A stretch of 56,466 nucleotides of DNA from Deltaproteobacteria bacterium (GTDB lineage: Bacteria; Myxococcota_A; UBA796; GCA-2862545): assembly GCA_007693595.1 (NCBI GenBank), contig REDI01000079.1, positions 1 to 56,466 of the forward strand, read 5' to 3'. The position numbers and the translations under genes were made by a program. Under the pieces are notes generated by a model. The model searched no databases, had not been told where the DNA came from, and saw nothing but the letters and a program-made list of their open reading frames with translations. Numbering within the stretch: position 1 is the stretch's first letter; each line of letters opens with the position of its first letter. This document shows, piece after piece, positions 18,067 to 40,700 of the stretch.

Positions 18067-18429
18067 CTAGCGTTCGTCGATGAGGGCGGCGTGCAGCGCG
18101 CGGTTCATGCTCGCGATGATCTCGAGCGCGTCCCCCTGCTGGCGGAGCCACAAGGTGTGGGTGTGCGCCGTCGCCTGCTGAGCCTCCGCGGTCGCTCGCG
18201 CGAGCTGACCGATCGTGGTCGCGGGCGCGGCGGAGGGCGTGGTTGGGGCCGGTGGAGGCTTCGGATCCGTGGCGGTCGGGGGAGGCTCCGGGCGAGCCGC
18301 GCGGGGGGGCTGCTGCGGCGCGACCCAGGCCCTCCACGGGAGCGCCTCGACCCTCGCTGGGGGTGCGTGGAGCTGGATCGCGGGCCCCGACCCCGTGCTC
18401 CAGCGGGTCCACGGCAGCGAAGGGCTCAC
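18067..18429 (-). CDS. Small coupled protein of the lipid synthase locus, linker-like helix
   Basis: A 120-residue frame starting with GTG whose GTGA overlaps the TGA stop of the pfaA-like gene, so translation is coupled to it. The first 70 residues are Pro/Ala-rich and disordered-looking. The C-terminal 45 residues are a predicted amphipathic helix containing Q-xx-TA-xx-H-xxx-LR-x-Q-xx-A (in AQQATAHTHTLWLRQQGDAL). The same spaced motif occurs in the synthase at about residues 1033-1051 (QARTAEVHAEFLRGQAKA), between AT and the ACPs. I infer a docking or dimerisation partner for the synthase. No named family is recognised. Confidence 0.6.
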   Translation of the reverse strand: MSPSLPWTRWSTGSGPAIQLHAPPARVEALPWRAWVAPQQPPRAARPEPPPTATDPKPPPAPTTPSAAPATTIGQLARATAEAQQATAHTHTLWLRQQGDALEIIASMNRALHAALIDER

Positions 18430-21400
18430 TCGGCACCCTCGCGGTACCGTTCGTTCAAGCCTTGCATCGACGTATACTGGCCACCTTCGATCCGAGCGAC
18501 CACCCGACCGGCGCCGTCGACGAACGTCGCGTCGTAGTGGCCTTGCCTGCTCTTGCCCGGCTTGAACTCGATGTGTGCCGAGATCGGGCCGCGGAATGGG
18601 GCGGTCTGAGTGTAGCGCCCGACGTAGCTCGGCAGGGCGGAGGCGCCCTGGTGCTCTCGGACCCAGAGCCCGACGAGCTGAAGGGCGCTGTCGAGGGTGA
18701 CGGGATCGGTAGTCCAGGTCGTGGCGTCGACGCCCAGGCGCTTGGGCTTGGAGGCGGAGAGCTGGCCGACGATGCCGTGGTCACTCATGCCGAGGATGTC
18801 CTCGATGCCCTGAAAGCCAGGGCCGTGGAAGAGGAAGCGCTGGTAGGCCTCGCCGACGGCGTAAGGGTAGGCGACCGCGCCCAGCCCGTTGCTCCCCGGG
18901 AAGCGATCCCCCGAGGCAGCTCGGTATGCCAGATCGACCGTTCCTCGGTAGTGCACCGTGGGAAGCCCCAGCTTGTTTGGGGCGCCTCGCAGCTCGAACG
19001 CGAGCGAGAGGCCGCCGTCGAGGGCGGGGCTTGTCGGGCGCCAGCTCAGGGTCAAGGCGATCTCATCGTCCTCGAGCACCACCCCCTTGAGCACCGCCAC
19101 CTCGCGCATGCCGACGAAGCGCAGCTCCGGGTGTCGCCGACGGGCCGCGTCAGCCATGAGCTCGAGCGCCATCACGAAGGGCAGCACCGGCTTGCCGTCG
19201 ATCCTGTGGTCGGCGAGGAAAGTCTGCTCTGCGCGAAGGAAGATCGTCTCTTCTCCCTCGCTCGCGTCGGAGATCGCGCGGCTTGGGCGCTGCCCCAGCA
19301 GCCCGCTGGGGCTGTCGGGACCGCCGATCACCACCTCGACCGCCGGGCCACCCCTCTCCAGCTCCTCGCAAAAGGCCTCGGCCCCCTGGACCTGCCCCAC
19401 GAGGGCGAGCCCGCGAGCCTCGAAGGCGGCGGCGAGGGTAGGCGTGACCATCCCCCCGTCCCAGGGACCCCAGTGAAAGGCTTTGACCCCAGGGACGCCC
19501 GCATGCCTCCACGCATGACACAGGTGGGTGATGGCCTCGTTCGCCATGGCGTAGTCCGCCTGGCCCCGGTTGCCGTACCGGCCCGCGACCGACGAGAAGA
19601 CGGCGAGCAGCTTGAGGTCCTGGGGCGAGGTGGTGGCGAGCAGCGATCGCAGCCCTTCGACCTTGGTCTGGTAGACGCGATCGAAGTCTGCGAGGGACTT
19701 GTCTGCGATCAGCTTGTCGGCGATGATCCCAGCGCCGTGGACGACGCCCCGCACCGGGCCTGCGCCGTGGCTCACCTTGGCGACGGCCGCGCGAACGGCC
19801 TCGCTATCGGTGACATCGACAGCGGCATAGGTCACCTCGCACCCGAGCTCTTTCAGGTCGTTCAAGGTGGAGCGCACCTCGCGCGACCGCCGCACCTGGG
19901 CCAGCTCCCGCTCCACCCTTCGGGGATCGAAGGGGGCTTGTTCCTCGCGCATCTTGCCGATCAGCGCGGGCTTGAGCTCCTGATCGTCGACCCCCCGGGC
20001 CCACGCGGGGTCCTGCTCTTCGACGGCGCTGCGGCCGAGCAGGAGGAGGGTGGGAGACCAGCGTTTCGCCATCTCGCGCACGACGGCCGAGGTCACGCCG
20101 CGGGCGCCGCCGCTCACCACGACCAGATCCCCGGCGCGGAGGGGGGCCTGGACGGGGGCGCTCGGGTGGAGGGTCACCGGCACGACCTCGAGCGTGATCG
20201 CCTCGTCGCTCAGGCCGATCTCGACCACTCCGCGATCGGTCATGAGCTCCTCGGCCAACCGATGGGGATCGACGCCCTCGTCGATGTCTACCGCGAGCGC
20301 GCGACAGGGAGGACGCTCCTGCTCCAGGGTCTTGACGAGCCCGGCGAGGGCGCCCTGAAGGGGCTCTCCGTCGCTCCGCTCGTGCCCGAAGGTTCCACCG
20401 AGCCCCGAGACGGTGGCGAAGAAGCGCGCGCTGGGTGCCAACTTGGCGAGCAAGAAGGCGCCGCGCACCCGCGCTTCGAGATCCTTCCCGACGGCTCCCA
20501 GGGCGGCGAGGTGCACGATCCCGGAGGTCGAGGGGGGAACCTGCTCCCCCACGGTGGTCAGGCTGGCCCAGTCGGGATCGATGACCCGAGGCTGCACGCC
20601 GCGCTCGCGCAGGGCGGCGGCCAGCTTGTCGGCCATACCCAGCCGGTCGCGGGTCAAGATCAGCGGGCTTGGCAGGGTGATCCCTTCGCCGTCGGGCGCG
20701 GGCACGATCACGACCTCGCGCCGGAGCGCCCCCCGAGGCGGCTCGGGAAGGGCGGCCGCCGTGGCGGGGGCGGCCGGCTCCGGAGGGGTCGATCCCTCCC
20801 GATGTGCCTTGACCAAGGCGAGTAGATCGCGCAGGGTTCGGACGCGGGCGATCTCGTCTTCGGGCAGATCAGGAAGCCCGGGAAGCGCTTCGGCCAAGGC
20901 TGAGAAGATCTCGACCCGCTTGATGCTGTCGATGCCCAGGTCGCCCTCGAGCTCCATCGAGGGCTGCAGCAGATCGACGGGATAGCCGGTGCGATCGGCG
21001 ATGGTCTGGAGGATCGTGCCATCCACATCGGTCGGAGGGGCCTTTGCTGGACGCGCGCCGGCCCTGGCCGAAAGGGAGACGGGTGGCGCTTCGGAGGCGC
21101 TCAGGGCCTCGATGATGTCGCCAAGCGTGCGCAGCCCCGAGAGCTCTTCTTCGGGCAGCTCCGGCGCGTCGGGCAGGGCCTCGGCGATAGCGGAGAGGAT
21201 CTCGACGCGCTTGATGCTGTCGATGCCCAGGTCGCCCTCGAGCTCCATCGCGACCCCGAGCAGATCCCTTGGATAGCCAGTCTTCTCGGCGACCAGGGTG
21301 AGCACGGTGCCCGCGAGGTCCGCGCTCCGAGCGGTGGCTGTCTTGGCCCCGGCGGGTTCCGGGGAGGGCGAACGCAGGCGGGCCTCGAGATCGGCCAGCG

Positions 21401-24400
21401 TGCGGATCGAGCCCAGCTCGTCCTCGGGGATCTCGGGCGCTTGGGGCAGGGCGTCTTGCAGGGCCGCCAGGATCTCGACGCGCTTGATGCTGTCGACCCC
21501 CAGATCGGACTCCAGATCCATCTGCGGCTGGAGCAGATCGGTCGGATAGCCGGTCTTTTCGGAGACGATCTGAAGCACGATGGAGGCTGGATCCACCGCC
21601 GGGGCCTGCGTGGTGGTCTCGGGAGGAGGCGCGGCCCGATGGCGGGTTGCGCTCGGTAAGGGTTGGCCCTCCTTGATGGCTGAGGCCAGCGTTTGAGCCG
21701 ACAGCATGGGAGGGAGGTCCTGGCTATCGCGCACGCGGGGACCATCGTTGCGAGGCATGTCGAGGGTCGTCGCCCGCTGAGGATCGGTCGGACGCAGGAC
21801 CGCCTCGGCGAGCGCGTCGTGGGTCCCTTCGATCGGCGCGGGAGCCGGGTCTACGGCGGGCACGGAGGCCGCGAGGGGGGCCTTGCCGCCGAGGAGCTGC
21901 GTCTGGCTCCGGAAGAGCTCGGTGAAGGTCTCGTTGGCCTTGGCCTGGCCACGAAGGAACTCGGCGTGCACTTCGGCGGTGCGGGCCTGGGTCTGCTGGA
22001 AGGCGGTCAGGCTCTCGCGCGTGGCCTGGATCAGCGAGGCCAGGGCTTCGCTATCGAGGGGGGAGGGGTCCGAAGAGCGGGGAGGGGAGGTCGTCATGGT
22101 CTGGCCTTGGGAGAGGTCCGCGTCGGAAGGAGGCGTGAAGAGGAGGGGGCCGGCGGTGTCGGTGTCGGGGTACGACCCGTTGACCGCCGTGGAGGGCGAG
22201 GCGGGCGCGTCGAGGGAGCCGCCGGCGTGCACCCGAGCCACGGGTCGTGTCGGGGAGGGCCGCACGAAGAGCTCGTCGCGCTCGGGCAGCTCGACGGGAC
22301 GCTTGAAGTTGGCCCCAGCGAGCCACACCGTGGCCTTGCTCCCGGCGGTCCGGGGGGAGCTCGGAAGCCGCTCCTCCAGGATCGGCGAGACGTCGATCGC
22401 GACCCCGCGACAGGCCAAGGCCATGAGGGCTCGCTTGAGCAGGGCATCGCCGTCGGTCTCGCCGTGGTCGGGATCGAGGCAGACGACCTCGATGTCGGTC
22501 CGGTCTGGCAGGCAGCGCTGGATCAGGCGGCTCAGCACCGACTTTGGACCGCACTCCACGAAGGTGGTGACCCCAGCGTTCGCCATCGCACGCACCACGC
22601 CGACCCAGTCGACCCCATGGGTCACCTGATCGGCGATCAAGGATCGGATCTGCGCGGGGTCGTCTGGGTAAGGGGCGGCCGACACGTTTGCGAAGACCGG
22701 CACGGAGGGGGGCTCGACCTGGATCTGCCCCAGGGCTTCGAAGAGGGGCGCGCGGGCATCGCGCACCAGGGGGCTGTGGAACGCCGCCGAGACCTGCAGC
22801 TCCGTGCCGGTGATCTCCTGGGCCTCCGCGGCGGCGAGCACGGCGTGCACTGCCTCGCGAGGACCCGCGATCACCCCTTGCTTGGGATGGTTGCGGTTGG
22901 CGAGCGTGACCTGCGGGTGGTCTGCGATCAGCGCTTCAATCTTGTCGAGGGGCGCCTTGAGCGCCGCCATCGTTCCTCGATCGGCCTCGCCCTCGCTCAT
23001 CGCGGAGCCTCGCACGTCCGAGAGGGTCCACAGGGCCTCGGACGACCAGACCCCCGCGGCGTGCAGGGCGACCAGCTCCCCGTAGCTGTGCCCAGCGAAG
23101 GCATCCGCCTTGACGCCGAAGCGCTCCAGGGTCCGCCACAGGCCGACCTCGAGGGCACCGAGGGCGGGCTGGGCCCAGGCCGTCTCCCGGAGCGCCATCG
23201 TCTGGCCCTTGCGCTCGGCAGGGGTGAAGGCAGGCGGGGGATAGATGCGGCGCGCGAGGCTCTCACCGCGGGAAGACTTGAGGGCTGCCTCGGCCTGATC
23301 GAGGGCATCGATCAGGGCAGGATGGCGCAGCGCTGTCGTTCGTCCCATGTTGACGTACTGGCTGCCTTGGCCAGGAAAGACCACCCCGATCTTGCCGTTG
23401 CCTTTTAAAGGTAGGGCAAATCGCACGCCGCCACGCTCGGCCGGCTGGTCGGCTCGGGCGAGCTCGTGGGCGATCCGAAGACGATCCCGCGCCTCGTCGA
23501 GGGTGGAGGCACAGAAGGCGATCACCTTGGGCCCTGGGGTCCAGCGCTCGAGCACGGCATGGGCTGCGTGATGAAGCGTCGGCGCTCCGTCCAGATCGAC
23601 CGCTTCGAGGGACTGCTTCAGGGCCTCGGTGGTCTCGGCACCAAAGAGGAAGAGCGCTTGCTCGGCGATCAGGGCCGTTGGGCGGGACTCGCCGTACTCC
23701 TCAACGGCGAAGTGATAGTTCGTGCCTCCAAAACCAAAGGCACTCACCCCCGCGCGACGCGGGCTGTCGGGCGAGCGAACCCACGGCCGCGCCTCGGTGT
23801 TGAGGTACAGCGGGGTCCCTTCGAAGTCCAGGCGGGGGCTCGGCTGTCGGATCTTGGCGGTCGGTGGAAGGACGCGCTGGTGTAGCGCCAGGGCGATCTT
23901 CATCAAGCCTGCGGCCCCAGCGGTGGCCTTGGTGTGCCCGATCTGCGACTTCACGCTCCCCAGGGCGACGTGTGCCTCGTCGCGCTCGCTCTTGAGAAAG
24001 ACCGCACGAAGGGCGTTGAACTCCGCGAGATCCCCAGCCTTGGTCCCCGTTCCGTGGGCCTCGATCAGCTCGACGCTCTCGAGGGGAAAGCCGGCCTCGG
24101 CGTAGGCGCGCCGCACGGCCTTGACTTGGCCCCCTGAGTTCGGGGCGTAGATGCTTTTGTTTCGTCCGTCTGAGCTCGTGCCGATACCCCGGATCACCGC
24201 GTAGATCCTGTCGCCGTCCCGCTCCGCGTCGGCCAAGCGCTTGAGCGCGAACATGGCGATCCCCTCGCTGATCACGATGCCGTCGCCGTCGACGTCGAAG
24301 GGACGCGAGTCGCCCCGCCGGGACAGGGCAGGGGTCTTGCTGAAGCACATGTACATGAAGATGTCGTTGAGGGTGTCGGTGCCCCCCGAGAGGGCCAGGT

Positions 24401-25085
24401 CGGTGCGGCCAGTCTGAAGCTCGCCGATGGCGTAGTGCAGGGCCCCCAGGGCGCTGGCGCAGGCGGCGTCGACGGTCGCGTTGGTGCCTCCCAGGTCGAG
24501 GCGGTTGGCGATCCGCCCCGCGCTCACGTTGGCGAGCATTCCGGGGAAGGACTGCTCCTGCCAGGTGGGGAGCATCTGCCCCACGTCCTCGAGGATACGC
24601 TCGATCACCGACTCGGGGACGCCGTTGCGCTGGAGCGCCCGACGCCAGGTGGGGCCGTGCAGCCGGGCCGACAGGTCCACCACGAGCTCGTTGGTCGAGG
24701 TGTGGCCAAGGATTACGCTCGTTCGGTCGCGATCCCAGCCCTCCCCGTCGGGATCGAGGCCCGCGTCGCGCAGGCACTCGCGGGCCACGATCAAGGCTAG
24801 GAGCTGGTCTGTGTCGATCGCTTCGAGGGCGTGGGGGATGACCCCATGGTCCATTGGATCGAAGGGGACCTTGTCGATGAACCCCCCCCGCGTCGCCCAG
24901 GTCTTGTCGGGGGTCTTGGGGTCGGCGTCGAAGAAGTCGTCGGGCGACCAGGAGTGGTCCGCGGGGATGTCAGAGAGACCATCGGTGGCGTGCACGATGG
25001 CGCGCCAGTACGACGTCAGGTCCGGCGCTCCCGGCAGGAGCGAGGACATTCCGACGATGGCGATGGGGGGGAGCTTCTCGGACAT
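18426..25085 (-). CDS. PUFA-type polyketide/fatty acid synthase, PfaA-like
   Basis: A 2219-residue iterative synthase with domains KS-AT-ACP-ACP-ACP-KR-DH. KS about 1-460: DAACASA with active Cys209, EAHGTGT with His344, QIGHTKATAG with His384. AT about 560-860: PGQGSQY and GHSYGE with Ser667. A linker (about 1000-1060) holds the Q-xx-TA-xx-H motif. Three ACPs carry GVDSIKR or GIDSIKR with phosphopantetheine serines 1199, 1290 and 1387. KR about 1650-1890: SGGARGVTS, SSVAGRYGNRGQADYAMAN (Tyr1845). The C-terminal DH-type hotdog has DHRIDGKPVLP (His1960) and LDSALQLVG (Asp2132). Order and motifs match PfaA of PUFA synthases, although PfaA usually has more ACPs. The product is probably a secondary lipid. 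No pfaB, pfaC or pfaE homologue is in the window. Confidence 0.9.
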   Translation of the reverse strand: MSEKLPPIAIVGMSSLLPGAPDLTSYWRAIVHATDGLSDIPADHSWSPDDFFDADPKTPDKTWATRGGFIDKVPFDPMDHGVIPHALEAIDTDQLLALIVARECLRDAGLDPDGEGWDRDRTSVILGHTSTNELVVDLSARLHGPTWRRALQRNGVPESVIERILEDVGQMLPTWQEQSFPGMLANVSAGRIANRLDLGGTNATVDAACASALGALHYAIGELQTGRTDLALSGGTDTLNDIFMYMCFSKTPALSRRGDSRPFDVDGDGIVISEGIAMFALKRLADAERDGDRIYAVIRGIGTSSDGRNKSIYAPNSGGQVKAVRRAYAEAGFPLESVELIEAHGTGTKAGDLAEFNALRAVFLKSERDEAHVALGSVKSQIGHTKATAGAAGLMKIALALHQRVLPPTAKIRQPSPRLDFEGTPLYLNTEARPWVRSPDSPRRAGVSAFGFGGTNYHFAVEEYGESRPTALIAEQALFLFGAETTEALKQSLEAVDLDGAPTLHHAAHAVLERWTPGPKVIAFCASTLDEARDRLRIAHELARADQPAERGGVRFALPLKGNGKIGVVFPGQGSQYVNMGRTTALRHPALIDALDQAEAALKSSRGESLARRIYPPPAFTPAERKGQTMALRETAWAQPALGALEVGLWRTLERFGVKADAFAGHSYGELVALHAAGVWSSEALWTLSDVRGSAMSEGEADRGTMAALKAPLDKIEALIADHPQVTLANRNHPKQGVIAGPREAVHAVLAAAEAQEITGTELQVSAAFHSPLVRDARAPLFEALGQIQVEPPSVPVFANVSAAPYPDDPAQIRSLIADQVTHGVDWVGVVRAMANAGVTTFVECGPKSVLSRLIQRCLPDRTDIEVVCLDPDHGETDGDALLKRALMALACRGVAIDVSPILEERLPSSPRTAGSKATVWLAGANFKRPVELPERDELFVRPSPTRPVARVHAGGSLDAPASPSTAVNGSYPDTDTAGPLLFTPPSDADLSQGQTMTTSPPRSSDPSPLDSEALASLIQATRESLTAFQQTQARTAEVHAEFLRGQAKANETFTELFRSQTQLLGGKAPLAASVPAVDPAPAPIEGTHDALAEAVLRPTDPQRATTLDMPRNDGPRVRDSQDLPPMLSAQTLASAIKEGQPLPSATRHRAAPPPETTTQAPAVDPASIVLQIVSEKTGYPTDLLQPQMDLESDLGVDSIKRVEILAALQDALPQAPEIPEDELGSIRTLADLEARLRSPSPEPAGAKTATARSADLAGTVLTLVAEKTGYPRDLLGVAMELEGDLGIDSIKRVEILSAIAEALPDAPELPEEELSGLRTLGDIIEALSASEAPPVSLSARAGARPAKAPPTDVDGTILQTIADRTGYPVDLLQPSMELEGDLGIDSIKRVEIFSALAEALPGLPDLPEDEIARVRTLRDLLALVKAHREGSTPPEPAAPATAAALPEPPRGALRREVVIVPAPDGEGITLPSPLILTRDRLGMADKLAAALRERGVQPRVIDPDWASLTTVGEQVPPSTSGIVHLAALGAVGKDLEARVRGAFLLAKLAPSARFFATVSGLGGTFGHERSDGEPLQGALAGLVKTLEQERPPCRALAVDIDEGVDPHRLAEELMTDRGVVEIGLSDEAITLEVVPVTLHPSAPVQAPLRAGDLVVVSGGARGVTSAVVREMAKRWSPTLLLLGRSAVEEQDPAWARGVDDQELKPALIGKMREEQAPFDPRRVERELAQVRRSREVRSTLNDLKELGCEVTYAAVDVTDSEAVRAAVAKVSHGAGPVRGVVHGAGIIADKLIADKSLADFDRVYQTKVEGLRSLLATTSPQDLKLLAVFSSVAGRYGNRGQADYAMANEAITHLCHAWRHAGVPGVKAFHWGPWDGGMVTPTLAAAFEARGLALVGQVQGAEAFCEELERGGPAVEVVIGGPDSPSGLLGQRPSRAISDASEGEETIFLRAEQTFLADHRIDGKPVLPFVMALELMADAARRRHPELRFVGMREVAVLKGVVLEDDEIALTLSWRPTSPALDGGLSLAFELRGAPNKLGLPTVHYRGTVDLAYRAASGDRFPGSNGLGAVAYPYAVGEAYQRFLFHGPGFQGIEDILGMSDHGIVGQLSASKPKRLGVDATTWTTDPVTLDSALQLVGLWVREHQGASALPSYVGRYTQTAPFRGPISAHIEFKPGKSRQGHYDATFVDGAGRVVARIEGGQYTSMQGLNERYREGAE

Positions 25086-25094
25086 GATGAGGCC

Positions 25095-26711
25095 TCAGGG
25101 AGAGAGGGGGCGCGGCGCCCACTGAGCGGCCGCGGGGCCAGGATCGACCCCTTGTTGTTGCAGGCTGCGCGCGCGGAGGACCGCTGCGGCGCCCGACATC
25201 AGGTTGGCGGCGACCACACCGACGCGGCGCTGGGCGGGATCTTCGAGGAAGGTTCCCCGCGTCCAGTCATTGAACGCGCCGATCACCGGCCCGCACCAGA
25301 TCTGGGTGTCGACCCGGCGCGAGGCCACCCCGCCGATGGCCCACCGCGAGGACAGGCCTAGATACCAACGAAAGATGAGCGCCATCTTGTGGCGCGGATC
25401 GCGGACGGCTCGCTCGAGCTGGGCGGGGTCGCGTGACTCAAAGAAGTCCACGCACGAGGCCCAGACCCGTTCGACGGGCTCGCCAAGGATGCGCTCGAGC
25501 TCGGACCGCTCCGTCGCGTCGAGCGCATCGAGGCTGTCGTAGCGCCGATACCACGCTCGGAGCTTCTGCCCACGCTGCGCGAAGAGGGTCCCGCGCTTGA
25601 GCACCTGCACCTCGGCGCCTTGCTCGAACATGTCGCCCGCAGGCGCCATGCCCACATCGGCCGCCCCGGCGTCGGCGAGCATGGCCTTGACCATCGGGCT
25701 CGTGCCGGCCTCTACGCAGGCTTGGTTGATGGTGCCCGTGAGCACATAGGCGGCCCCGAGCGAGAAGGCCGCGGCGACCGCGGACGGCGTGCCGATCCCG
25801 CCGGCGGCGCCGACCCGCACCCGGTGTCCGGTCTGGAGCGCGACCCGATCGCGGAGGGCGAGGAGCAAGGGGAGCAGCACGGGCAAGGGGCGGCGGTCGG
25901 TGTGCCCGCCGGAGTCCGCCTCGGCCGTGAGGTCGTCGGCCATGGGTACCTTGGCGGCCAGGGCGGCTTGGGAAGCGGTGATCCGACCCTGCTCCGCTAG
26001 GGCCTTGAGGAGACGAGCCGGAGCGGGTCGCAGGAAGTGCTCGGCGACCTCGGGCCGGCTGACCTTAGCGAGGATACGATGCCGGATCTGCACCTGGCCG
26101 TGGGCCCCCTCGCTCAGGCCGGCGGCTCGGTAGCGCACGAGGGCGGGGGTGAGCTTACTGTAGGCCGAGGCTGAGACGACCCGGATCCCTCTCTGGATGA
26201 AGAGGTCGACTGTGGCGTCCTCGGCGCCGGGGTCGTTGGGGCTGTGGATCAGGTTGAAGCCAACCGCGAGATCGGGCACCTCGCCTCGAATGCGATCGAT
26301 GGCCTGTGCGATACGCGCCACCGGCAGACCTGCGGCGCCAAAGAAGCCCATGAGACCCATCTTGGCCATCGCGATCACGACCTCTTCGGAGCCGATGCCG
26401 TTGGCCATGGCCCCGGCCACGTAGCAAGCCCGCACCCCATAGGTGGATCGGAAACCAGGATCGCCGAGATCCGAAGGCAATAGGGGGCCAACCCAAGCCA
26501 AGAGCGGCAAGGCCTGGGTGCCCGCGGGCTGCGGTGCGGGCCCCGTCAGGATCGGGGCCCCCCCGCTCGCCCAGCCGATCCCGGCGGGGGTGCGCACCAC
26601 CGCGACGTCGGCGTGGAGCGCTTCGATCGCCTCCGTGAGTCCGCTCACACCGGGCTGTGCCGGGGTGGAGCCTTGAAGGTACCAGCCTTTTTGCCGAAAT
26701 TCAGAGGTCAT
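25095..26711 (-). CDS. pfaD: PfaD-like enoyl reductase of the lipid synthase
   Basis: A 538-residue FMN-dependent TIM-barrel enoyl reductase of the 2-nitropropane dioxygenase/PfaD type (family about 540). Visible blocks: STYGVRACYVAGAMANGI near the N-terminal third, KMGLMGFFGAAGLP, GFNLIHSPNDP, VRVGAAGGIGTPSAVAAAF (FMN-phosphate region), YVLTGTINQACVEAGTS, and the PfaD-specific C-terminal part KMALIFRWYLGLSSRWA. It lies 9 nt upstream of the synthase gene on the same strand and is the first gene of the operon. It provides the enoyl reduction missing from the synthase, so the two together have a full reductive cycle. Confidence 0.92.
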   Translation of the reverse strand: MTSEFRQKGWYLQGSTPAQPGVSGLTEAIEALHADVAVVRTPAGIGWASGGAPILTGPAPQPAGTQALPLLAWVGPLLPSDLGDPGFRSTYGVRACYVAGAMANGIGSEEVVIAMAKMGLMGFFGAAGLPVARIAQAIDRIRGEVPDLAVGFNLIHSPNDPGAEDATVDLFIQRGIRVVSASAYSKLTPALVRYRAAGLSEGAHGQVQIRHRILAKVSRPEVAEHFLRPAPARLLKALAEQGRITASQAALAAKVPMADDLTAEADSGGHTDRRPLPVLLPLLLALRDRVALQTGHRVRVGAAGGIGTPSAVAAAFSLGAAYVLTGTINQACVEAGTSPMVKAMLADAGAADVGMAPAGDMFEQGAEVQVLKRGTLFAQRGQKLRAWYRRYDSLDALDATERSELERILGEPVERVWASCVDFFESRDPAQLERAVRDPRHKMALIFRWYLGLSSRWAIGGVASRRVDTQIWCGPVIGAFNDWTRGTFLEDPAQRRVGVVAANLMSGAAAVLRARSLQQQGVDPGPAAAQWAPRPLSP

Positions 26712-27962: not shown

Positions 27963-28723
27963 CGTGCCAGTCCTCCGCGGGTTGTTCGTGGTCCGATAAC
28001 ACGAGATGCCCCAGGGGGATTCCCGAGTAGTCCCCGTTGGCAGACCTCAGATGGGCTCGGGCGCCGGAGGGGGTGCCCCGTGGAACGCGGCCGCAGGTCG
28101 ACGCGCGTCGCGGGCTCTCGATAGTCCAAGAATTGAATATTTGTAGAATTCGTGATGACAGCTTCAAGCTCCACTCGGCTGCTGAGCCGATCCAGTGCGT
28201 TTGGAGTGGTCCAACATTCTCGTTGTTGACGGGATCCAGGACAGGACCTGTGCAAATTTCAACACTCAGAGGAGGCGACTCAAGCATCGATTCAATCGAT
28301 GACCGCATGAAGTATTTGGATTATGGGTGCCGTGGATGAAGGGGCACACGCCTGCCGAGCTCTCCCTACCTCGAATGGGGTACGAGACAGGTTGCGGTTG
28401 CGAATACGCACCGTCGTACAATCCTTTCAGCGCAGCGCTGGTGACGGCCGCTCGATGCCCAAGGCGTCCGCCTGGGGCTCGGGTCCTTCTCCGAAGCTGC
28501 AAGGAAAGGGGCAGGTTAGAGTATGGCTCTCGCCGAAGGCTTCTCCGAAGCGCAGCGTTGAACGTCGATGCAGGAGTGAAGTGGACATCCGTGAACATCC
28601 TTGACACGCGGTGATGACAGATTACCCGCCTCGGGATTTGGTGTTTTTTACTCACCGACTTGTATTACTTCGACCCCTTCGGTAGCCTACTCGGGCTCTC
28701 TTCTCAGAACAGGATTCGCCATC
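27963..28723. other. Long intergenic region between divergent genes
   Basis: About 760 bp without a supported gene; the short frames on both strands have no homology-like content. It is less GC-rich than its surroundings (for example around 28125-28160 and 28625-28680) and must hold the promoter of the giant lipoprotein gene. A TTGACA (about 28599-28604) lies 120 bp upstream of that start, without a convincing -10 at the right spacing. I see no tRNA-like or riboswitch-like fold by eye. Confidence 0.4.
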
Positions 28724-31700
28724 ATGAACAAGCGCGCCTCCCTTCCCGTCTCTCTCGGCTCTGCCTTGGTCCTCGCTGCCCTGGCTGGCTGTCAGTCCGC
28801 CCCGGTCGCCCCGGTGGTCCGCGTCGCGCCCGACCGGCCGTCCACCCTCGATGACCTCGAGCTTCGCGTCGTGGTCGGCTCCGACCAGCTCGATAACTCC
28901 GAGATCGCCTTCTACAACATCCGCTGGCTCGTCGATGGCGTCGAGGTCCGCGACATTCGCAACGAAGACACGGTCGACTCGAGCCTCACCGCCAAGGGTC
29001 AGGAGTGGTCGGCGCTCGTCACCCCCGTCGACACCCGCGGTCGCGAGGGCGAGACCGCGCAGACCTCTGCGGTGATCCTCAACACGCCCCCCGCGGGCGA
29101 CGTGAGCATCTCACCCCTGCAGCCGCAGCCCGAGCAAGAGCTCACTGCGAACGCCACCGGCGAAGACATCGACGAGGATCAGATCACCTGGTCTTTCCGC
29201 TGGTTCGTCGATGGCGAGCTCACCGAGCACACCTCCGAAGTCCTGCCCTCGGGCCTCACCAACAAGGGCGAGGTCTGGATGGTCGAGGCCACACCCAACG
29301 ACGGCGACGACGACGGCCGCCCCACCACCGCCTCCGTCGTGATCGACAACACCGCCCCAGTCGTCGTCTCTATCACCATCCAGCCCACCGAAGCCTACGG
29401 CAACACGGACCTCACCGCGGTGCCCGAAGGCTTCGACGAAGAGGGCGACACGATCATCTGGAGCTATCGCTGGTTCCGAAACGGCGAAGAGATCGAGGGC
29501 GAAGAGTCCGAAGTCCTCGGCGCCGACAACTTCGCCAAGGCCGACGCCATCGAGGTCGAAGCCACCCCGAACGACGGCTTTACCGACGGCTTCCCTCAGC
29601 GCAGCCTCGCGGTGCACATCCTCAACACCGCCCCCTCCTTCGAGTCGGCCTCCATCGAGCCTGAAGTGGCCTACACAACCACCACGCTGTCTTGCATTGG
29701 CTCTGGGTTCGAAGACCTCGACGGCGACCCCGAAGGCTACGTCCACACTTGGTTCGTCAACGGCGTCGAGATCTCCACCGACCCCACCCCCGCGGTCGAG
29801 CTCTACGCCAAGGGCGACAGCGTCCTCTGCGAGCTGACCGCCTTCGACGGCGAAGACACGGGCAACACCGAGTCCAGCGAGCCCATCATCGTCTTGAACA
29901 CCGCCCCCACCCTCGACGCGGTCGCGATCAGCCATGAAGAGCCCACCGTCCAAGACGTCCTCAGCGCCGAGCTCGACGGCGTGTTCGACGCCGACGGCGA
30001 TGTCGTCGAGTTCGCGTACCGCTGGTTCACCGTCGACGATGAGACCGGCGACGAGATCGATCTGAGCGATGAGCCCGAGCTCACCTCCACCGACTTCGAG
30101 AAGGGCATGACCCTCTGGGTCGAGGTCACCCCCTCCGACGACGAAGAGCCCGGCATGCCCGTGGTGAGCGAGCCCGTCACCATCCTCAACGCCGCCCCCG
30201 AGATCGACAGCCTCGAGCTCGCCCCTGCGCCCGACGAGGCCTTTGCCTTCGTCGACGTGGTGGCCAGCGTCGAGTCCTCCGACGCCGACGGCGACGAGGT
30301 CACCCTCGACTTTGTCTGGTCGGTCAACGGCGAGCCGATCGAAGACCTCGAGGGCGACACCCTCGACTCCGACTTCTTCGTCAAGGGCGACGTGGTGCAG
30401 GTCACCGTCACCCCCACCGACGACGAGACCGACGGCGAGCCCGCCACGGCCTCGCTGACCATCCTCAACAGCGAGCCCACGATCGAGGGCGCCACCATCG
30501 CGCCCGACGCGCTCTTCGCCGACACCTCGGTCACCTGCTTCCCCTTCGGCTGGTTCGACGCCGACGACGACGAGGAGTACTACCGCTACCGCTGGCTCGT
30601 CGGCGACGAGGTCGTCGGCAACACCTCGGTGCTGCAAGGCGACGTGGTCGAGCGCGGCATCGACATCGTCTGTGAGATCACGCCCTTCGACGGCGAGGCC
30701 CACGGCGAGGCCCGCGTCTCTGCGCCCATCCAGCGCTCCAACACCCCGCCGGTGCTCGCGGGCGTCAGCCTGTCGACCCTCACCCCCCAAGAGGGCGACA
30801 CCATCGACGTGATCCTCGGCGATCTCTTCGACGACGACGGCGACGACATCAGCCTGTCCTACGCCTGGTTCGTCGGCGACGCCACCGATCCGGTCCACGA
30901 CGGTGAGCAGCTCAGCAGCGACGACTTCGTCAAGGGGCAAGACATCTACGTCGTCGTCACGCCGAGCGACGGCTTCGACGACGGCGCCCCCGTCATGTCC
31001 GACATCGCCCGCGTCCAGAACACGGCACCCACGGTCGAGAGCGCCTTCATCAGCCCTGAGCCCGCCTACACCGACAGCATGCTTCAGTGCGTCGGCGTCG
31101 GCTTCGACGACGCCGACGGCGACGACGAAGGCTACCTCTACGCCTGGTTCGTCAACGGCGAGGAGCGCTCCACCGCGGCGTCCCTGCCCACCGATCAGTT
31201 CAGCAAGCGCGATTCCGTTCACTGTGAGCTCACCGCCTTCGACGGCGAAGACGAGGGCAACACGGTCGTCGCTGACACGATCGAGATCCAAAACTCTTTG
31301 CCCACCATCGAGATGGTGGCCATCGACAACCCCGAGCCCACCGTGCGCGACACCCTCGGGGTCGACATCGTCGGCGTGTTCGACGCCGACGAAGACGACG
31401 TCTCGCTCGCCTACCGCTGGTACACCCTCGACGACGTCACCGGCGAGGAGCTCACCCTCGGCACCGAGGCCGAGCTGCCCGGCTCCGACTTCGACAAGGG
31501 CATGATCGTCTGGGTCGAGGTCACCCCCTCCGACGAAGACGGCCCCGGCATCGCCATGGTCAGCGAGCCCGTCGAGGTGCTCAACGCTGCGCCCCAGATC
31601 GACGAGATCAGCGTCGCCCCCGATCCGGCCTTCACCCTCACCGACCTCGTCGCCACCGTCGATGCCTCCGATCCCGACGGCGACGACGTCGAGATTGACT

Positions 31701-34700
31701 TCGCGTGGTACGTCAACGGCGCCTTCGTCGACGCGGCCCTGGGCGACACGCTCACCGCCGACAACTTCGTCAAGGGCGACGTCATCACCCTCACCGCCAT
31801 CCCCTCCGACGGCGACCTCGATGGCGAGGCGGTCGAGTTCGGCCCCGTCTCGATCCAGAACACCGCGCCCTCCATCGCTGGCGTGAACATCGAGCCCGGC
31901 GAGCTCTTCGCCGACTCCTCGGTCAATTGTGTGCCCTTCGGCTGGTCCGACGATGACGGCGACGAGGAGTTCTACCGCTACCGCTGGCTCCTCGACGGCG
32001 CCGAGGTCGGCAACACCTCCGTCCTTCACGGCTCCGTCGTCCCCCGCGACGTCAACCTCGTCTGCGAGGCCACCCCCTTCGACGGCGATGACCTGGGCGA
32101 GCCCCGAGTCTCTCCCGCGATCCAGCGCTCGAACACCCCGCCGGTGCTCGCGAGCGCGACCCTCACCAACACCAGCCCCCAAGAGGGCGATGTGCTCGAG
32201 GTCACCCTCGGCGCCGCCACCGACGCCGACGGCGATGGCGTGAGCTTCAGCTATGCGTGGTACGTCAGCGGCAGCATGGTGCACACTGGCGAGACCCTCG
32301 ACAGCAGCCTCTTCGCCAAGGGCGACGACATCTTCGTCATCGTCACGCCAAACGACACCTTCGACGATGGCGCGCCGGTCACCTCCAACATCGCGCGCGC
32401 GATCAACACCCCGCCCACCTTCACCGGTGCGGCCGTCCAGCCTGCGGTCGTCTACACCGACACCCCCGTCGAGTGCGTCGGCTTCGGCTTCGACGACGCC
32501 GATGGCGATCCCGAGGGCTACCGCTACACCTGGTTCGTCGACGGCGTCGACCAGGTCTTCGACGGCCCCTTCCTCCCGGTGGACCGCTTCGAGAAGGGCC
32601 AGTCCATCTCCTGTGAGCTCATCGCCTTCGACGGCGAAGAGCTGGGCAACAGCCACGCCGCCGATCCCGTCCAGGTGCTCGACTCCCTACCCACCATCGG
32701 CGAGGTCGAGATCGACCTCGAGCGCCCCACGGTCCTCGACACCCTCACCGCCGTCGTGTCTGACGTCTTCGACGCCGACGGCGACGAGGTCACCCTCTTC
32801 TATCGCTGGTACTGGATCGATAGCGAGACCGACGAGGAGATCGACCTGGGCGATAACGATATTCTTGAGCTCGGCTCTTCGGATCGAGGCCGCACGATCT
32901 ACCTCGAGGTCACGCCCTCCGACGATCCCGACGACGAGTCCCGGTTCGGCGCGACGGTGTCCGCAGAGCCCGTCACCGTGCTCACGACGATCCCCGAGGT
33001 CGTCCTGCTCGAGATCCAGCCGGATCCCGCGTTCACCTTCGACAACCTGATCGCTGTCATCGAGATCGACGACGACGCCGACGACGTCGAGCTCACCTAT
33101 GAGTGGCGGGTCAACGGCGTGCTCATCCCGGGCGCCGATGGGCCGGACCTCGGCTTCGAGAACTTCGTCAAGGGCGACGAGGTCCTGCTCTCGGTCACCA
33201 CCTCCGACGGCACGACCGGCGAGCGGGTCGTCTCCGAGAGCATCATCATCCAGAACAGCCTGCCGGTGGTCGAGGAGCTGACCATCGAGGGCGACGCGGG
33301 CGACGGCACCTTCACCGTCGACTCCACGCTGAGCTGTGCAGTCGGCGAGTTCAGCGACGCCGACGGCGACGACGTTGAGTTCTTCTACCGCTGGTACGCC
33401 GGCTCCGACGTGGTCAGCACCTCGATGATGCTGCCCGGAGGCGCGGTGGACCGCGGGGTCCCCGTGACCTGCGACGTGCGCCCGAACGACGGCGAGTCCT
33501 TCGGCAGCGCGGTCGTGGCGGGCCCGGTCGAGCGCGTCAACGTGCCGCCGGTCCTCGACAGCGTGATGCTGTCCAACCTCAACCCGCGTGAGGGAGACAC
33601 GATCGACGTGATCCTCGGCGATCTCTTCGACGCCGACGGCGACGGCGTCTCGGTCGAGTACGAGTGGTTCGTGAACGGCTCCTCCGAGGGCCTGCCGACG
33701 GGGTCCTCCCTGTCGAGTGAGCACTTCGCCAAGGGCGACAGCGTCTTTGTGCGCGTGCACTACAACGACGGCTTCCTGGCGACGGCGCTCACCCGAGACT
33801 CCGACATGGCGACGGTGGGCAACACCGCGCCGGTCATGGAGGCGGTCAGCATCGCGCCGCTCGCGCCCTACACCACCGACGGGGTGGTGGCGACGGCCTC
33901 GGCGACCGACGCCGACGCGGCCGACGCGGCGAGCCTCAACTTCACCTACACCTGGCTCGTCGATGGCGACGTGGCGCAGGTCGACGAGAACGTCGGCGCG
34001 ACAGCGACGCTGAGCGCGAGCGCCTTCCGCAAGAACCAGACCATCCAGGTGCTGGTCCACGCCAACGACGGAACCGATGACAGCGCGGCGCTGCGCAACG
34101 CGGTCGACGCGCGCTCCATCAACACCGCCCCGTCCATCGCCAGCGCCTCCATCACGCCGTCCACCGGCATCGTGATGGGCACGGAGCTGACCTGCAACAC
34201 GTCTGGTTGGGCCGATCCCGACAACGCCGACGACGCGTCTGTCGACGTCGAGCAGTACGAGTACCAGTGGCACGTCAACGGCTCGGTGGCCGGCGTCGAC
34301 TCCACGCTGTCTTCGGGCTTCGAGCGCGGCGACATGGTCACCTGTACGGCGATCCCGGTCGACGACGAGGGGGCCCGCGGCGACGCGCGCACCAGCGACC
34401 CGGTCGAGGTGCAGCCGAGCGTGCCCGTGGTCGACGCGGCCATGGTCGAGGCTGCCGGCGACGGCGGGGTGCTCGACACCTTCTGGTGTGTGGTCGAGGC
34501 CGAGGTCTACGACGACGTCGAGTTCGAATACCGCTGGCTGGTTCAAGACCCCGCAGGCGACGAGATGGAGCTCGTCGACGAGCTGGGCGACAGCCTGGCC
34601 AACCCCTCCGAGGGCGAGCGCCTCTTCGTGCGCGGCGAGGAGCTTCGCTGCGTGGTCACGCCGGTCCTGTTCGAGGGCTCCGACGAGATCCGCGGCGATG

Positions 34701-37700
34701 AGGTTGAGAGCGACTGGCTCGAGGTGCTCGACACGCCGCCAGAGATCCTCTCGGTCTCGATCGCGCCGCTGTCTGGCGAGGCCCTGGCGTACACCACCGA
34801 CACCATCGTGGCCGATGTCGACGCAGACGACGCCGACAACCCCGAGGACGTGATCCTCTCCTACCGTTGGCTCGTCAACGGTGGCGAGGTCAGCGACGCC
34901 GAGACCCTCACCTCCGACCTCTTTGTCAAGAGCGACGTGGTGCAGCTCGCGGTCACGCCGTCCGAGAACGGCGTCGACGGCCCGGAGATGGTCTCCGATC
35001 CGCTCACCATCCAGAACACCCTTCCGGTGGTCGACGATCTGAGCATCGAGGGCGCCGAGGGCGATGGCAGCTTCACTATCGACTCCACGTTGACCTGTGC
35101 GGTCGGTGCCTACGGCGACGCCGACGGCGACGACGTCGAGTTCTTCTACCGCTGGTACGCCGGCTCCGACGTGGTGGGCACCTCGATGATGTTGGCCGGT
35201 GGCGCGGTGGACCGCGGGGTCCCGGTGACCTGCGACGTGCGCCCGAACGACGGCGAGGCCTTCGGCAGCGCGGTGGTGGCGGGTCCGGTCGAGCGCGTGA
35301 ACGTGCCGCCGGTGCTCGACAGCGTGCTCCTGTCCAACCTCAGCCCGCGCGAGGGTGAGACGATCGACGCGATCCTTGGCGACCTCTTCGACGCCGACGG
35401 CGACGACGTGACGGTGGCGTACGAGTGGTTCGTGAACGGCTCGTCCGACGGTCTGCCGACGGGGTCCTCCCTGTCGAGTGAGCACTTCGCCAAGGGCGAC
35501 AGCGTCTTTGTGCGCGTGCACTACAACGACGGCTTCCTGGCGACGGCGCTCACCCGAGACTCCGACATGGCGACGGTGGGCAACACCGCGCCGGTCATGG
35601 AGGCGGTCAGCATCGCGCCGCTCTCGCCGTTCACCACCGACGAGGTGGTGGCGACGGCCTCTGCGACCGACGCCGACACCGATGACGTGCTCAACTTCAC
35701 CTACACCTGGATGGTCGATGGCGACGTGGTGCAGGTCGACGAGAACGTCGGCGCGACCGCGACGCTGAGCGCGAGCGCCTTCCGCAAGAACCAGACCATC
35801 CAGGTGCTGGTCCACGCCAACGACGGAACCGATGACAGCGCGGCGCTGCGCAACGCGGTCGACGCGCGCTCCATCAACACCGCCCCGTCCATCGCCAGCG
35901 CCTCCATCACGCCGTCCACCGGCATCGTGATGGGCACGGAGCTGACCTGCAACACGTCTGGTTGGGCCGATCCCGACAACGCCGACGACGCGTCTGTCGA
36001 CGTCGAGCAGTACGAGTACCAGTGGCACGTCAACGGCTCGGTGGCCGGCGTCGACTCCACGCTGTCTTCGGGCTTCGAGCGCGGCGACATGGTCACCTGT
36101 ACGGCGACCCCGGTCGACGACGAGGGCGCCCGCGGCGACGCGCGCATCAGCGACCCGGTCGAGGTGCAGCCGAGCGTGCCCGTGGTCGACAGCGCGATGG
36201 TGGTCGCCGCCGGAGACGGCGGCGTGCTCGACACCTTCTTCTGCGAGGTCGAGGCCGAGGTCTACGACGACGTCGAGTTCGAGTACCGCTGGTTGGTCCG
36301 CATCTCCGAGGTCGAGGACATCGAGCTTGACGGCGAGGTCGACGAGAGCCTGTCCAACCCCGAGGGCGAGCGTCTCTTCGTGCGTGGCGAGGAGCTTCGC
36401 TGCGCGGTCACCCCGGTCCTGTTCGAGGGCTCCGACGAGATCCGTGGTGTTGAGGTCGAGAGCGACTGGCTCGAGGTGGACGATACGCCGCCCGAGATCC
36501 TCTCGGTCTCGATCGCGCCGCTGTCCGGCGAGGCCGTGGCCTTCACCACCGACACCATCGTGGCCGATGTCGACGCGGACGACGCCGACAACCCCGAGGA
36601 CGTGGTCCTCTCCTACCGCTGGCTCGTCAACGGAGCCGAGGTCAGCGACGCCGAGGAGCTCACCTCTGACCTGTTCATCAAGGGCAACACCGTGCAGCTC
36701 GCGGTGACCCCGACCGAGAACGGCGTCGACGGCGCGGAGATGCTCTCCAACGCGCTCAGCATTCAGAACACCGCCCCCGTCATGACCGGTGTAGACCTCG
36801 ACGCGGCGGATCCCTTCCGCGTGCAAGACGTCGCCACCTGTCTGCCGGCCGCTACCGACGCAGACAACGACGTCGTGTCCTTCACCTACCGCTGGCTGCA
36901 AGGTGGCGTGGCGATCGACGGTGCGACCTCGGCGCAGCTCCAAGGCGACCAGATCGACATCGGAGACTCGGTCGTCTGCGAAGCGACGCCGTTCGATGGC
37001 ACAGACAGCAACGATCCGCTTGAGTCCGACCCGATCACCCGCGTCAACACCCCGCCCGAGCTGGCGAACGTGTTGCTCTCGAACCTCAGCCCGCGCTCGG
37101 GCGAGGAGATCAGCCTCAGCCTCGGCGCCTTCTACGACGCCGACGGTCATGATCCGGCCTTCGCCTCCTTCGTGTACGAGTGGTATCGCGTTGCCGAGGG
37201 AGACGACGAACTCATCCAGAGCGGCGGCGAGACCCTCACCGCTGAGCTCTCCAAGGATGATCAGGTCTATGCGGTCGTCACCCCGCACGACGGCTTCGAG
37301 CCTGGCGCCCCGGTCACCTCGGCGGTCGCCACGGTGGCCAACACCGCGCCGACCATGGTGTCGGTCTCGCTCTCTACGGTGGCGCCGGTCACCACCGACA
37401 GCGTGGTGGCGTCTGCCCTTGCTAGCGATGCGGACGGCGATGACCTCAACTACGTGTTTACCTGGCACGTCGGGAGTGGAGAGCCGATCGTAGACGCCGA
37501 GCCGGTGCTGCAGGATGGTCTCTGGCAGTCCACCCTCGATAGTGACGGCTTTGTGAAGAACCAAGACATCGTGGTCCTGGCTCAGGCCACAGAGGCTGAG
37601 GAGGGAGGCGCTTCTACCGCTACCCTCAGCGCCACTGCCCGCTCCATCAACAGCGCGCCCGCCTTCGGTTCAGAGGGCAGCGTCGAGATCAGCTACGAGG

Positions 37701-40700
37701 GCGACATCATCCTCGCGGGCACGGAGCTCACCTGTGCAGCGACCGGCTCCGAGGATCCCGACCGCGATGTCGACGCCGGCGTCGATCTTGAGCAGTACGA
37801 GTACCTCTGGCTCATCAACGGAGTGTCCACGGGTGACACCAGCCAGATGATCTCCTCGGGCTTCGACGGTGGCGATCAGGTTGGCTGCGTCGCCACGCCC
37901 ATCGACGACGACGGGGCCCGTGGATCGTCGATCGCCAGCGCGCCTGTCAGCGTGGGCAACACCGCTCCGACCATCGACCTGGTCACCGTAGAGCCCTTCG
38001 ACCCGTTCGCCGAGGACGGCGAAGAGCCCGATCTCATCGGCGGTGTGCTCGACACCTTCCGCTGCAAGGCAGACAATATTCAAGACATGGACGGCGATCC
38101 CGTTAGCCTCAGGTATGTGTGGACCGTCACTCGCGGCGACGACGAGGTCTTCGCTAACTCCGAAGACGTCGAGCTCACGCTCGGCGAGGGTGAGAGCTTC
38201 CTCGACGGCGTGTACGACGAGCTTGAGCTCACGTTCATCACAGAAGTTGACGGGGAGGAACCAGAGGAGTTCGAGCTCCTCCGAGACGACGTGATTACCT
38301 GCAAGGTGACGCCGAGCGACGAGTTCGGCGTCGGAGACGACGTAGAAGGCGACTTCACGGTGCAGAACACCGCGCCCTCCATCGTCGAAGCACCTTCGAT
38401 TTCCTGGCCTGGTGAGGACGGTCTGAAGACCACCCACGACTTGACATGCTCGGTCAACGTGGACTCTTGGGAAGACCCTGACGAAGGAGACTCCAAGATT
38501 TACCGATTTTCATGGGAGATACGCAGGGGTGGAGAATGGAGTGTCGTAGAGTTCGACGGGTCTGATTACGATGAGGTCGACGCGACAATGTTCGCGGATG
38601 GATCGTGGGTCGAGTCGACACTGGAGCAGGGCCTTACCCGTCGGGATGACATGATTCGCTGCTCGGTAACACCTTTCGATGGGTATCTTGATGAAGAGGA
38701 GTCCGAAGAACTTGGAGTCGGAGAGATCGTCGAAGCTCGTGAGGATGATGATGAGGCTTGGCCTACAGTTGGCAACACCCTGCCCATGATCGGGGCCAAC
38801 GATAGCGGGGACACCGTGGTCCTCTCGGAGACGTTCAACACCACCGAGGACATCACCTGCACGGTCGTTGGTGACTGGATCGATCCCGACTACGTGCCCA
38901 CCGATCCGGCCGACGATCAGGTCGACGCGCCGCTCTACGAGTTCGCGTGGACGTTGAATGATGCCATTGAGCCAATCCGTACCGTACAGCAAACCTCGTC
39001 ATCCGACGTCCTAGACTCTGAACTGCACACCTACGACAAGGGCGACGTAGTCACCTGCACCGTCACCCCACGCAACATCCTAGAGAGTGGCGACAGCGTC
39101 GGCGACGACGAAGAGGTGGTGGTGGTGTCTGGCACGGTCCTGAACACCTCGCCGGTCATCAGCAACGTCACGGTGGCTCCCGCCGAACCGCGCCCGAACC
39201 CGCGCCCCGACGACGCGATCATCCGCGCTGGCGAGGCCCTGGTCGCCAACGTCACTGCCACCGATGCGGACGGCGATGGTCTGACCTTCGCGTACACGTG
39301 GCGCTACGACGACGGCGAGCAAGAGGTGATCCTCTCCGGCTCGAGCAACACCCTTGCGGTGACGAACGCCAACGCTGGCCGCCCCATCGTCGTCGAAGTC
39401 GTCGCAGACGATGGCACGCCGGACGCCGGAACCGAGCTTCCTTATCGGAGCAACAGCCTCCCCTCTACCTCCGCGTCGAGCGAGATCCGCACGAACGCGG
39501 CGCCCATCATTCCGATCGGTGGCGCGACCATCACCGCAGATCCTACCCCGGCGGTCGAGAGCACGCTCTTGGCTTCTCAGGACTCCTCGGATCCCGACGG
39601 GGACCCGATCGCCGAGTCGTATGAGTGGCGCGTGCGGTTCCCCTCTCAGGCTTTCACCACGATCTCGGGCGAGACATCTGACGAGCTCAACAACCCGGCT
39701 AACGGGCCGCGGCACTTCATCAGAGGCCAAGAGGTGCGCGCCGTCGCGCGCGCCACCGACGGGTTGCTCGACACGAATGGTTCTTCGTCCTGGCTCCTCA
39801 TCGAGAATACGGCGCCGACCGCCGGAGACGTCCAGCTCACCTCTAACGGAAACTTCGGCATCGACGAGGGCGTGACCTGCAGCGCGGAGCGTTTCGTCGG
39901 CGAAGACGCGGTCGAGGGGTGGTTCGATCCCGATATCGCGCGCGACAGCGAGTCAGTTGGCGACACGCTGACCTACACCTACAGTTGGTATCGCGTCCGC
40001 GGCGGCGCAGAGACCCTGGTAGATACGGTAGAGGACACGACCTCGACGAGTGTCGATCTCGACCTGGATACCACCGCTATCGAGTTCGAAGACAACGACA
40101 TGGTTCGCTGCACGGTCTCCGCTCAGGACGACACGGGCGCGGACGCCTTGGATGGAGCGGGTGAGGCGGCGGTCATCGTCTCAGAGGAGACGGTCTACGA
40201 CCTCCGTCCCGGTCTCACGGTGCTGACCTCGAGCGTCAGCTTGTTCACGTTGGACGACGCCGAGATCACGGTCGAGGGTGTCGAGCAGTTCGTCGGACAG
40301 TCCATCGAGTTCTACTTCAACTGGCGCGTCAACCCCGAAGAGGGGTGGGACGACGGCCTCTCCCACGGCGAGACGCAAGAGGGTGGGATCAGCTCGCTCA
40401 GCTCCGACGACTTCGGTCGCGAAGACGAGGTGTGTGTGTGGGTCGTCGCCGTTGCAGACGACCGCGTGTCCGATCCCTACGTCGAGTGCTGGGATGTTCA
40501 GAACTCCGCGCCCGAGATCGTCACGGCGGTGGTCGCGACGGCCGATGGACGAGACGAGGTCCCCAACAACCTCACCTGCTCGGTTACGGCCACCGACGGC
40601 GACTTGGACAGCCCGCCGGTCGCCGGCGAGCTTGAGAGCTTGACCGCTACCTTCAGCTGGTTCCATGAAGGCGTGCAGATCGGTGATGACATCGATCTGG

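Follow-up and report, generated by a model that had tools for sequence, protein, structure and literature searches.

The window, which corresponds to the entire contig C56 (56,466 bases) of the draft genome G000 (4.92 Mb, 97 contigs, 98.39% complete), carries two adjacent genes, pfaD and pfaA, whose predicted products together cover a full reductive cycle, in an assembly where no PfaC was found. With slightly better than even confidence, we read this pair as the remainder of a pfaD-pfaA-pfaBC operon that would have lost pfaBC and would now make a saturated chain. Both genes lie on the minus strand, pfaD being upstream and separated from pfaA by a gap of 10 bp, an operon-like spacing. The two genes and the domains of PfaA are the following:

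25095..26711, minus strand: pfaD, stand-alone enoyl reductase, first gene of the pair (538 aa; TIGR02814)
18426..25085, minus strand: pfaA, KS-MAT-ACP3-KR-DH megasynthase (2219 aa; TIGR02813 and Pfam domains)
23598..25067, minus strand: KS domain with Cys209, His344 and His384 (Pfam PF00109, PF02801 and PF16197; PfaA aa 7-496)
22476..23381, minus strand: MAT/AT domain with Ser667 and His770 (Pfam PF00698; PfaA aa 569-870)
21381..21596, minus strand: core of ACP 1 with Ser1199 (Pfam PF00550)
21108..21323, minus strand: core of ACP 2 with Ser1290 (Pfam PP-binding; three-copy repeat D1)
20817..21032, minus strand: core of ACP 3 with Ser1387 (Pfam PP-binding; three-copy repeat D1)
19458..20123, minus strand: KR domain with Ser1832 and Tyr1845 (Pfam PF08659; PfaA aa 1655-1876)
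18465..19247, minus strand: PKS-type DH, a two-part hotdog with His1960 and Asp2132 (Pfam PF21089 and PF14765; PfaA aa 1947-2207)

The whole PfaA protein reaches 1444.2 bits against TIGR02813 (curated NCBIfam cut-off of 1010.1) and PfaD reaches 608.8 bits against TIGR02814 (curated NCBIfam cut-off of 449.25), the solved structures nearest to the latter by sequence being those of PfaD, 6lkc and 4yx6. A motif scan identified EADSGGHTD and GAAGGIGTP in PfaD and, in PfaA, DAACAS at 206 (KS), GHSYG at 665 (AT), three ACP serine motifs, SSVAGR and QADYAMAN (KR), and HRIDGKPVLP (DH). The pair formed by pfaD and a three-ACP pfaA, which a preliminary description had proposed, is thus confirmed by family scores, Pfam domains and motif scan. 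The same holds for the full reductive cycle in two genes, as KS, AT, three ACPs, KR, DH and a separate ER were all detected and the catalytic residues checked are intact, the scan placing the two DH residues at exactly the positions given in that description. The 12 catalytic residues of PfaA that were checked are the same in 10 relatives from the family, except that five of these ten lack the second ACP, and the KS triad is kept in all 11 family proteins. Pfam revealed neither a thioesterase nor any other release domain in PfaA or PfaD of the window.

Neither pfaB, pfaC nor a PPTase gene was found within the 56 kb contig, and neither the 18.4 kb downstream of pfaA nor the 29.8 kb upstream of pfaD showed an ORF for PfaC or a PPTase. 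Two candidate traces of a former third gene were rejected. A hidden pfaC remnant downstream of pfaA was sought by tblastn with four PfaC proteins, which align the KS of pfaA alone (all the rest at E >= 0.28), and a search for excision scars beside pfaA, as inverted or direct repeats, brought up nothing beyond weak matches and the repeat formed by the ACPs. Promoter- or terminator-like sites at the locus show no excess over shuffles. The neighbours identified in the window include genes of housekeeping type, for RNase III, a GTPase with a KH domain and a protein of the tRNA methyltransferase family, as well as proteins of a different nature. One of the latter is a 4802-aa open frame at positions 28601-43009 of the plus strand, which has REJ matches and weak PKD-like ones and probably encodes a giant surface protein; opposite to it lie long overlapping minus-strand frames of 1181 and 1625 aa without Pfam match.

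The absence of PfaC, which the preliminary description had reported for the vicinity of the pair, extends to the genome assembly. That description had also named a pfaC located elsewhere in the genome as what would speak against its interpretation, and searches of G000 for PfaC and for FabA domains did not find any. When the PfaC of a relative was used as a query against the 21 genomes of the family, relatives gave full-length PfaC, whereas no PfaC was found on the 97 contigs of G000. In this genome, the query gave five matches (best E 3.2e-62), and those among the matches listed (C31, C56 and C95) are all KS-only, corresponding to KS domains of other synthases. The Pfam FabA search gave a single match in G000, a stand-alone frame of 159 aa taken, from its size, for FabZ; it gave seven in G003 and nine in G015, including their PfaC proteins. 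The PfaC of canonical PUFA synthases (KS-CLF and two FabA-type DH) was therefore found neither in the window nor on the 97 contigs, where an assembly gap is possible. Furthermore, the block that trails pfaC in G003, G015 and G010, members of three related genera, made of a gene encoding a TIG-domain protein and a conserved gene run, is present in G000 at C82:71870-81990 (L188, L189) without pfaC; it lies in the interior of a contig of 113 kb and its TIG gene is inverted. The congener G016 likewise yielded no PfaC in the PfaC and FabA searches, but this is weak evidence, because its contig stops within pfaA, whose 3' half was not found in the G016 assembly either.

The main rival, and a serious one, is that the cluster is split, an unlinked pfaC being present but lost in a gap of the assembly or of the binning; the pair would then belong to a complete Pfa synthase making a polyunsaturated or another long chain. 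We consider this rather unlikely, while giving it real weight. The loci of named genomes (the best 80 of 469 found) show how often pfaC is remote. A third gene, pfaBC or pfaC, follows pfaA in 47 of these 80 loci, and 24 are uninformative, as their contig ends less than 5 kb past pfaA. The other nine (L031, L044, L061, L064, L067, L072, L077, L096 and L104) have at least 5 kb downstream and no pfaC, and all nine genomes hold PfaC elsewhere. Unlinked pfaC is therefore recurrent across several phyla rather than an oddity of the window; a lone pfaDA is accordingly rare, and the draft assembly could have missed pfaC. The family itself offers examples. Among its 21 genomes, a pfaA of the same clade occurs in at least 14 (in G010 and G013 as a contig-end fragment only), and 11 of these 14 carry a PfaC with at least 42% identity. 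This PfaC is adjacent to pfaA in most of them, but its gene lies 23 kb off in G003, and G007 and G018 have it on a separate contig; G013 has a match of 38% only, and G000 and G016, which belong to the same genus, have none. In addition, the G000 assembly breaks at such genes, a second synthase being split between C95 and C89. Against a split cluster stand the lack of any PfaC match beyond KS domains on the 97 contigs, the restriction of FabA domains to one stand-alone frame, and the assembled neighbour block of C82 from which pfaC is absent.

The layout of the pair is not new. The portion of Shulse & Allen 2011 (PMC3098273) covered here describes 20 types of secondary lipid synthases, among which Type J, from Planctomyces limnophilus, consists of pfaD followed by a KS-MAT-ACP3-KR gene and is called apparently partial; according to these authors, its KS is close to that of Type I. 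The window fits Type J by gene content and domain order: two genes, pfaD then pfaA, with KS-MAT-ACP3-KR and no pfaBC. It differs by the C-terminal PKS-type DH of its PfaA, which does not appear in the published domain string of Type J. The preliminary description had held that the absence of an adjacent pfaC marks this locus out. This claim is not supported, as a two-gene layout has been in print since 2011 (PMC3098273) and all nine comparable genomes carry an unlinked pfaC. Reduced Pfa sets are already known from another source as well, since the part of a 2026 survey considered here (PMC13291983) describes pfaBC proteins lacking CLF or KS-CLF. In the portions of the open-access literature covered here, no PfaA/PfaD pair is described as working in the absence of PfaC.

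Among the closest known systems are also the pfaD-pfaA-pfaBC clusters of the family, Lujinxingia, Geobacteraceae and Planctomycetota, which share with the window gene order, tandem ACPs, KR and C-terminal DH, their KS-AT being 42-69% identical to that of the window. They also possess, next to the pair or at another site, a third gene of the layout KS-CLF-(AT)-FabA-FabA, of which none was found in the window's genome. These clusters overlap, in organisms and layout, with Type I as presented in the part of PMC3098273 considered here, but the window does not have the pfaBC fusion within the cluster that characterises this type. The PfaABCDE systems of Shewanella, Moritella and Photobacterium resemble the window in that its PfaA and PfaD exceed the curated cut-offs and that PfaD structures are the nearest to its ER; they differ from it in that neither PfaB nor PfaC was found in the window, and in the number of ACPs, three versus 4-6 for Type A according to the same part of PMC3098273.

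The KS phylogeny suggested in the preliminary description was provided by a single KS-AT tree of 90 rows, built by a 'quick' method after removal of PfaC rows (L166, L167, L168 and L170), duplicate loci (L131, L133 and L138) and rows with 700 residues of KS-AT or fewer; L014 is a long outgroup whose placement is unsure. The window pairs with L032 from the congener G016 (branch value of 100) within a clade of 12 rows from its own family (97), in which other members carry an adjacent pfaC. It falls outside the Geobacteraceae clade, and, as its KS-AT belongs to its own family clade, it was not placed in Type I.

Two other absences noted in the preliminary description hold for the window. The PPTase is indeed missing from the contig, but G000 has two PF01648 matches, an Sfp-like domain on C89, fused to another synthase, and an ACPS-family gene on C84, so that activation of the ACPs in trans is possible. 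Likewise, no pfaB was found in the contig, but a separate pfaB is not expected in this lineage, because the third gene of relatives looks like a pfaBC fusion; an AT-like stretch within their PfaC gives a weak match.

The synthase that bears the Sfp-like PPTase is a giant one, split between L014:1-6251(-) on C95 and L015:9380-13135(-) on C89; the two contigs have a terminal stretch of 55 identical bases in common, which lies within an ACP repeat. Four relatives have this synthase as a single ORF of 3250-3583 aa, with an uncharacterised N-terminal region followed by KS-AT-ACP-KS2-ACPs-KR-DH-PPTase; it is similar to Type R (KS-MAT-CLF-ACP-KR plus PPTase), but DH and PPTase are fused on. A cooperation in trans, in which this synthase (P0003/P0004) would supply PfaDA with a KS/CLF-like partner and a PPTase, is improbable. 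It has a second KS and a PPTase, and none of its detected domains is an ER, but G014, G003, G020 and G017 have the same synthase in one ORF, and all four also gave PfaC matches. The giant synthase is therefore not a replacement for pfaC, and its candidacy as a substitute was mostly rejected. Moreover, a second PfaD is available to it on C22 (L016:9547-11457(-), 636 aa, 54% identical), which has no synthase gene beside it in the ORFs scanned and could serve the giant synthase, given its lack of a detected ER domain. Another synthase, on C31 (L017:6838-13206(-)), is a 2122-aa KS-AT-ACP-KR-DH protein with a C-terminal class I/II aminotransferase domain, and frames of similar size recur in family genomes among the matches listed.

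That the pair is a decaying remnant, drifting after pfaDA lost its function along with pfaC, is more improbable still: the window ACPs are the most divergent of 11 family members (mean identity to the family of 0.52 versus 0.62-0.66) and their copies the least alike one another (0.61), but no frameshift and no loss of a catalytic residue was observed across the 2219 and 538 codons of pfaA and pfaD, the differences from G016 in the 5' part of pfaA are in excess at third codon positions (0.435 versus 0.247 and 0.212 at first and second ones), as under purifying selection, and the ACP signal vanishes across 69 loci. Indeed, measured against KS identity, the window ranks above the 14 lowest of these loci, 20 of the 89 proteins examined having yielded no ACP core with the motif applied, and ACP divergence was rejected as a mark of a lost partner. 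The ACP motif of the window, PE(D/E)EL, resembles that of wider Pfa families. In the same comparison, the Oligoflexia-type Pfa loci L091, L103 and L089 have ACPs far less conserved than their KS predicts (z of -4.0, -3.7 and -2.3).

If the pair is the remainder of a pfaD-pfaA-pfaBC operon, malonyl units would be loaded by the MAT of PfaA onto the three ACPs, activated by a PPTase whose gene lies outside this contig. The KS of PfaA itself would condense them, its KR would reduce and its PKS-type DH dehydrate, and the enoyl would be reduced in trans by PfaD. Without the KS-CLF and FabA-type dehydratase/isomerases of PfaC, cis double bonds would not be placed. As the remaining cycle would involve no cis-isomerisation, saturated acyl chains, probably short or medium, are the most likely product. 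Since the off-loading AT expected in PfaBC would be missing too, the chain may be passed to an unassigned acceptor. According to the part of PMC9702510 considered here, the trans-enoyl products of DHPKS pass to the ER to give a saturated carbon pair and DHFabA isomerises to cis; KSA takes C2, C4, C6, C10, C16 and C18, and KS-CLF takes C10 and C20. For a marine system, the part of PMC12895367 considered here attributes the final elongation to the KS-CLF of PfaC and reports that PfaB loss abolishes longer-chain PUFA products. From these published functions, PfaA and PfaD alone should therefore give saturated chains and no PUFA, although substrate ranges of KSA and DHPKS, established in other bacterial systems, may differ here. 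The preliminary proposal of a simpler, non-PUFA lipid agrees with this, a saturated chain being its likeliest form given that no PfaC was found.

As pfaC often lies apart from pfaDA, clusters that look incomplete on a single contig, published types included, need a check of the whole genome. In particular, the published 'partial' Type J could be a split cluster with an unlinked pfaC instead of a truncated one. If PfaC has been shed for good, the pair may, as we tentatively suggest, be a minimal type I iterative fatty-acid synthase making fully saturated secondary lipids without a chain-length factor. It would possibly consist of one megasynthase and one trans enoyl reductase, in a genus whose relatives keep PfaC. 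In Pfa synthases, PfaA and PfaC divide between them the work that sets chain length and unsaturation. From a naturally occurring pair of PfaA and PfaD without PfaC, one would learn what PfaA makes on its own, a product so far pieced together from other systems.
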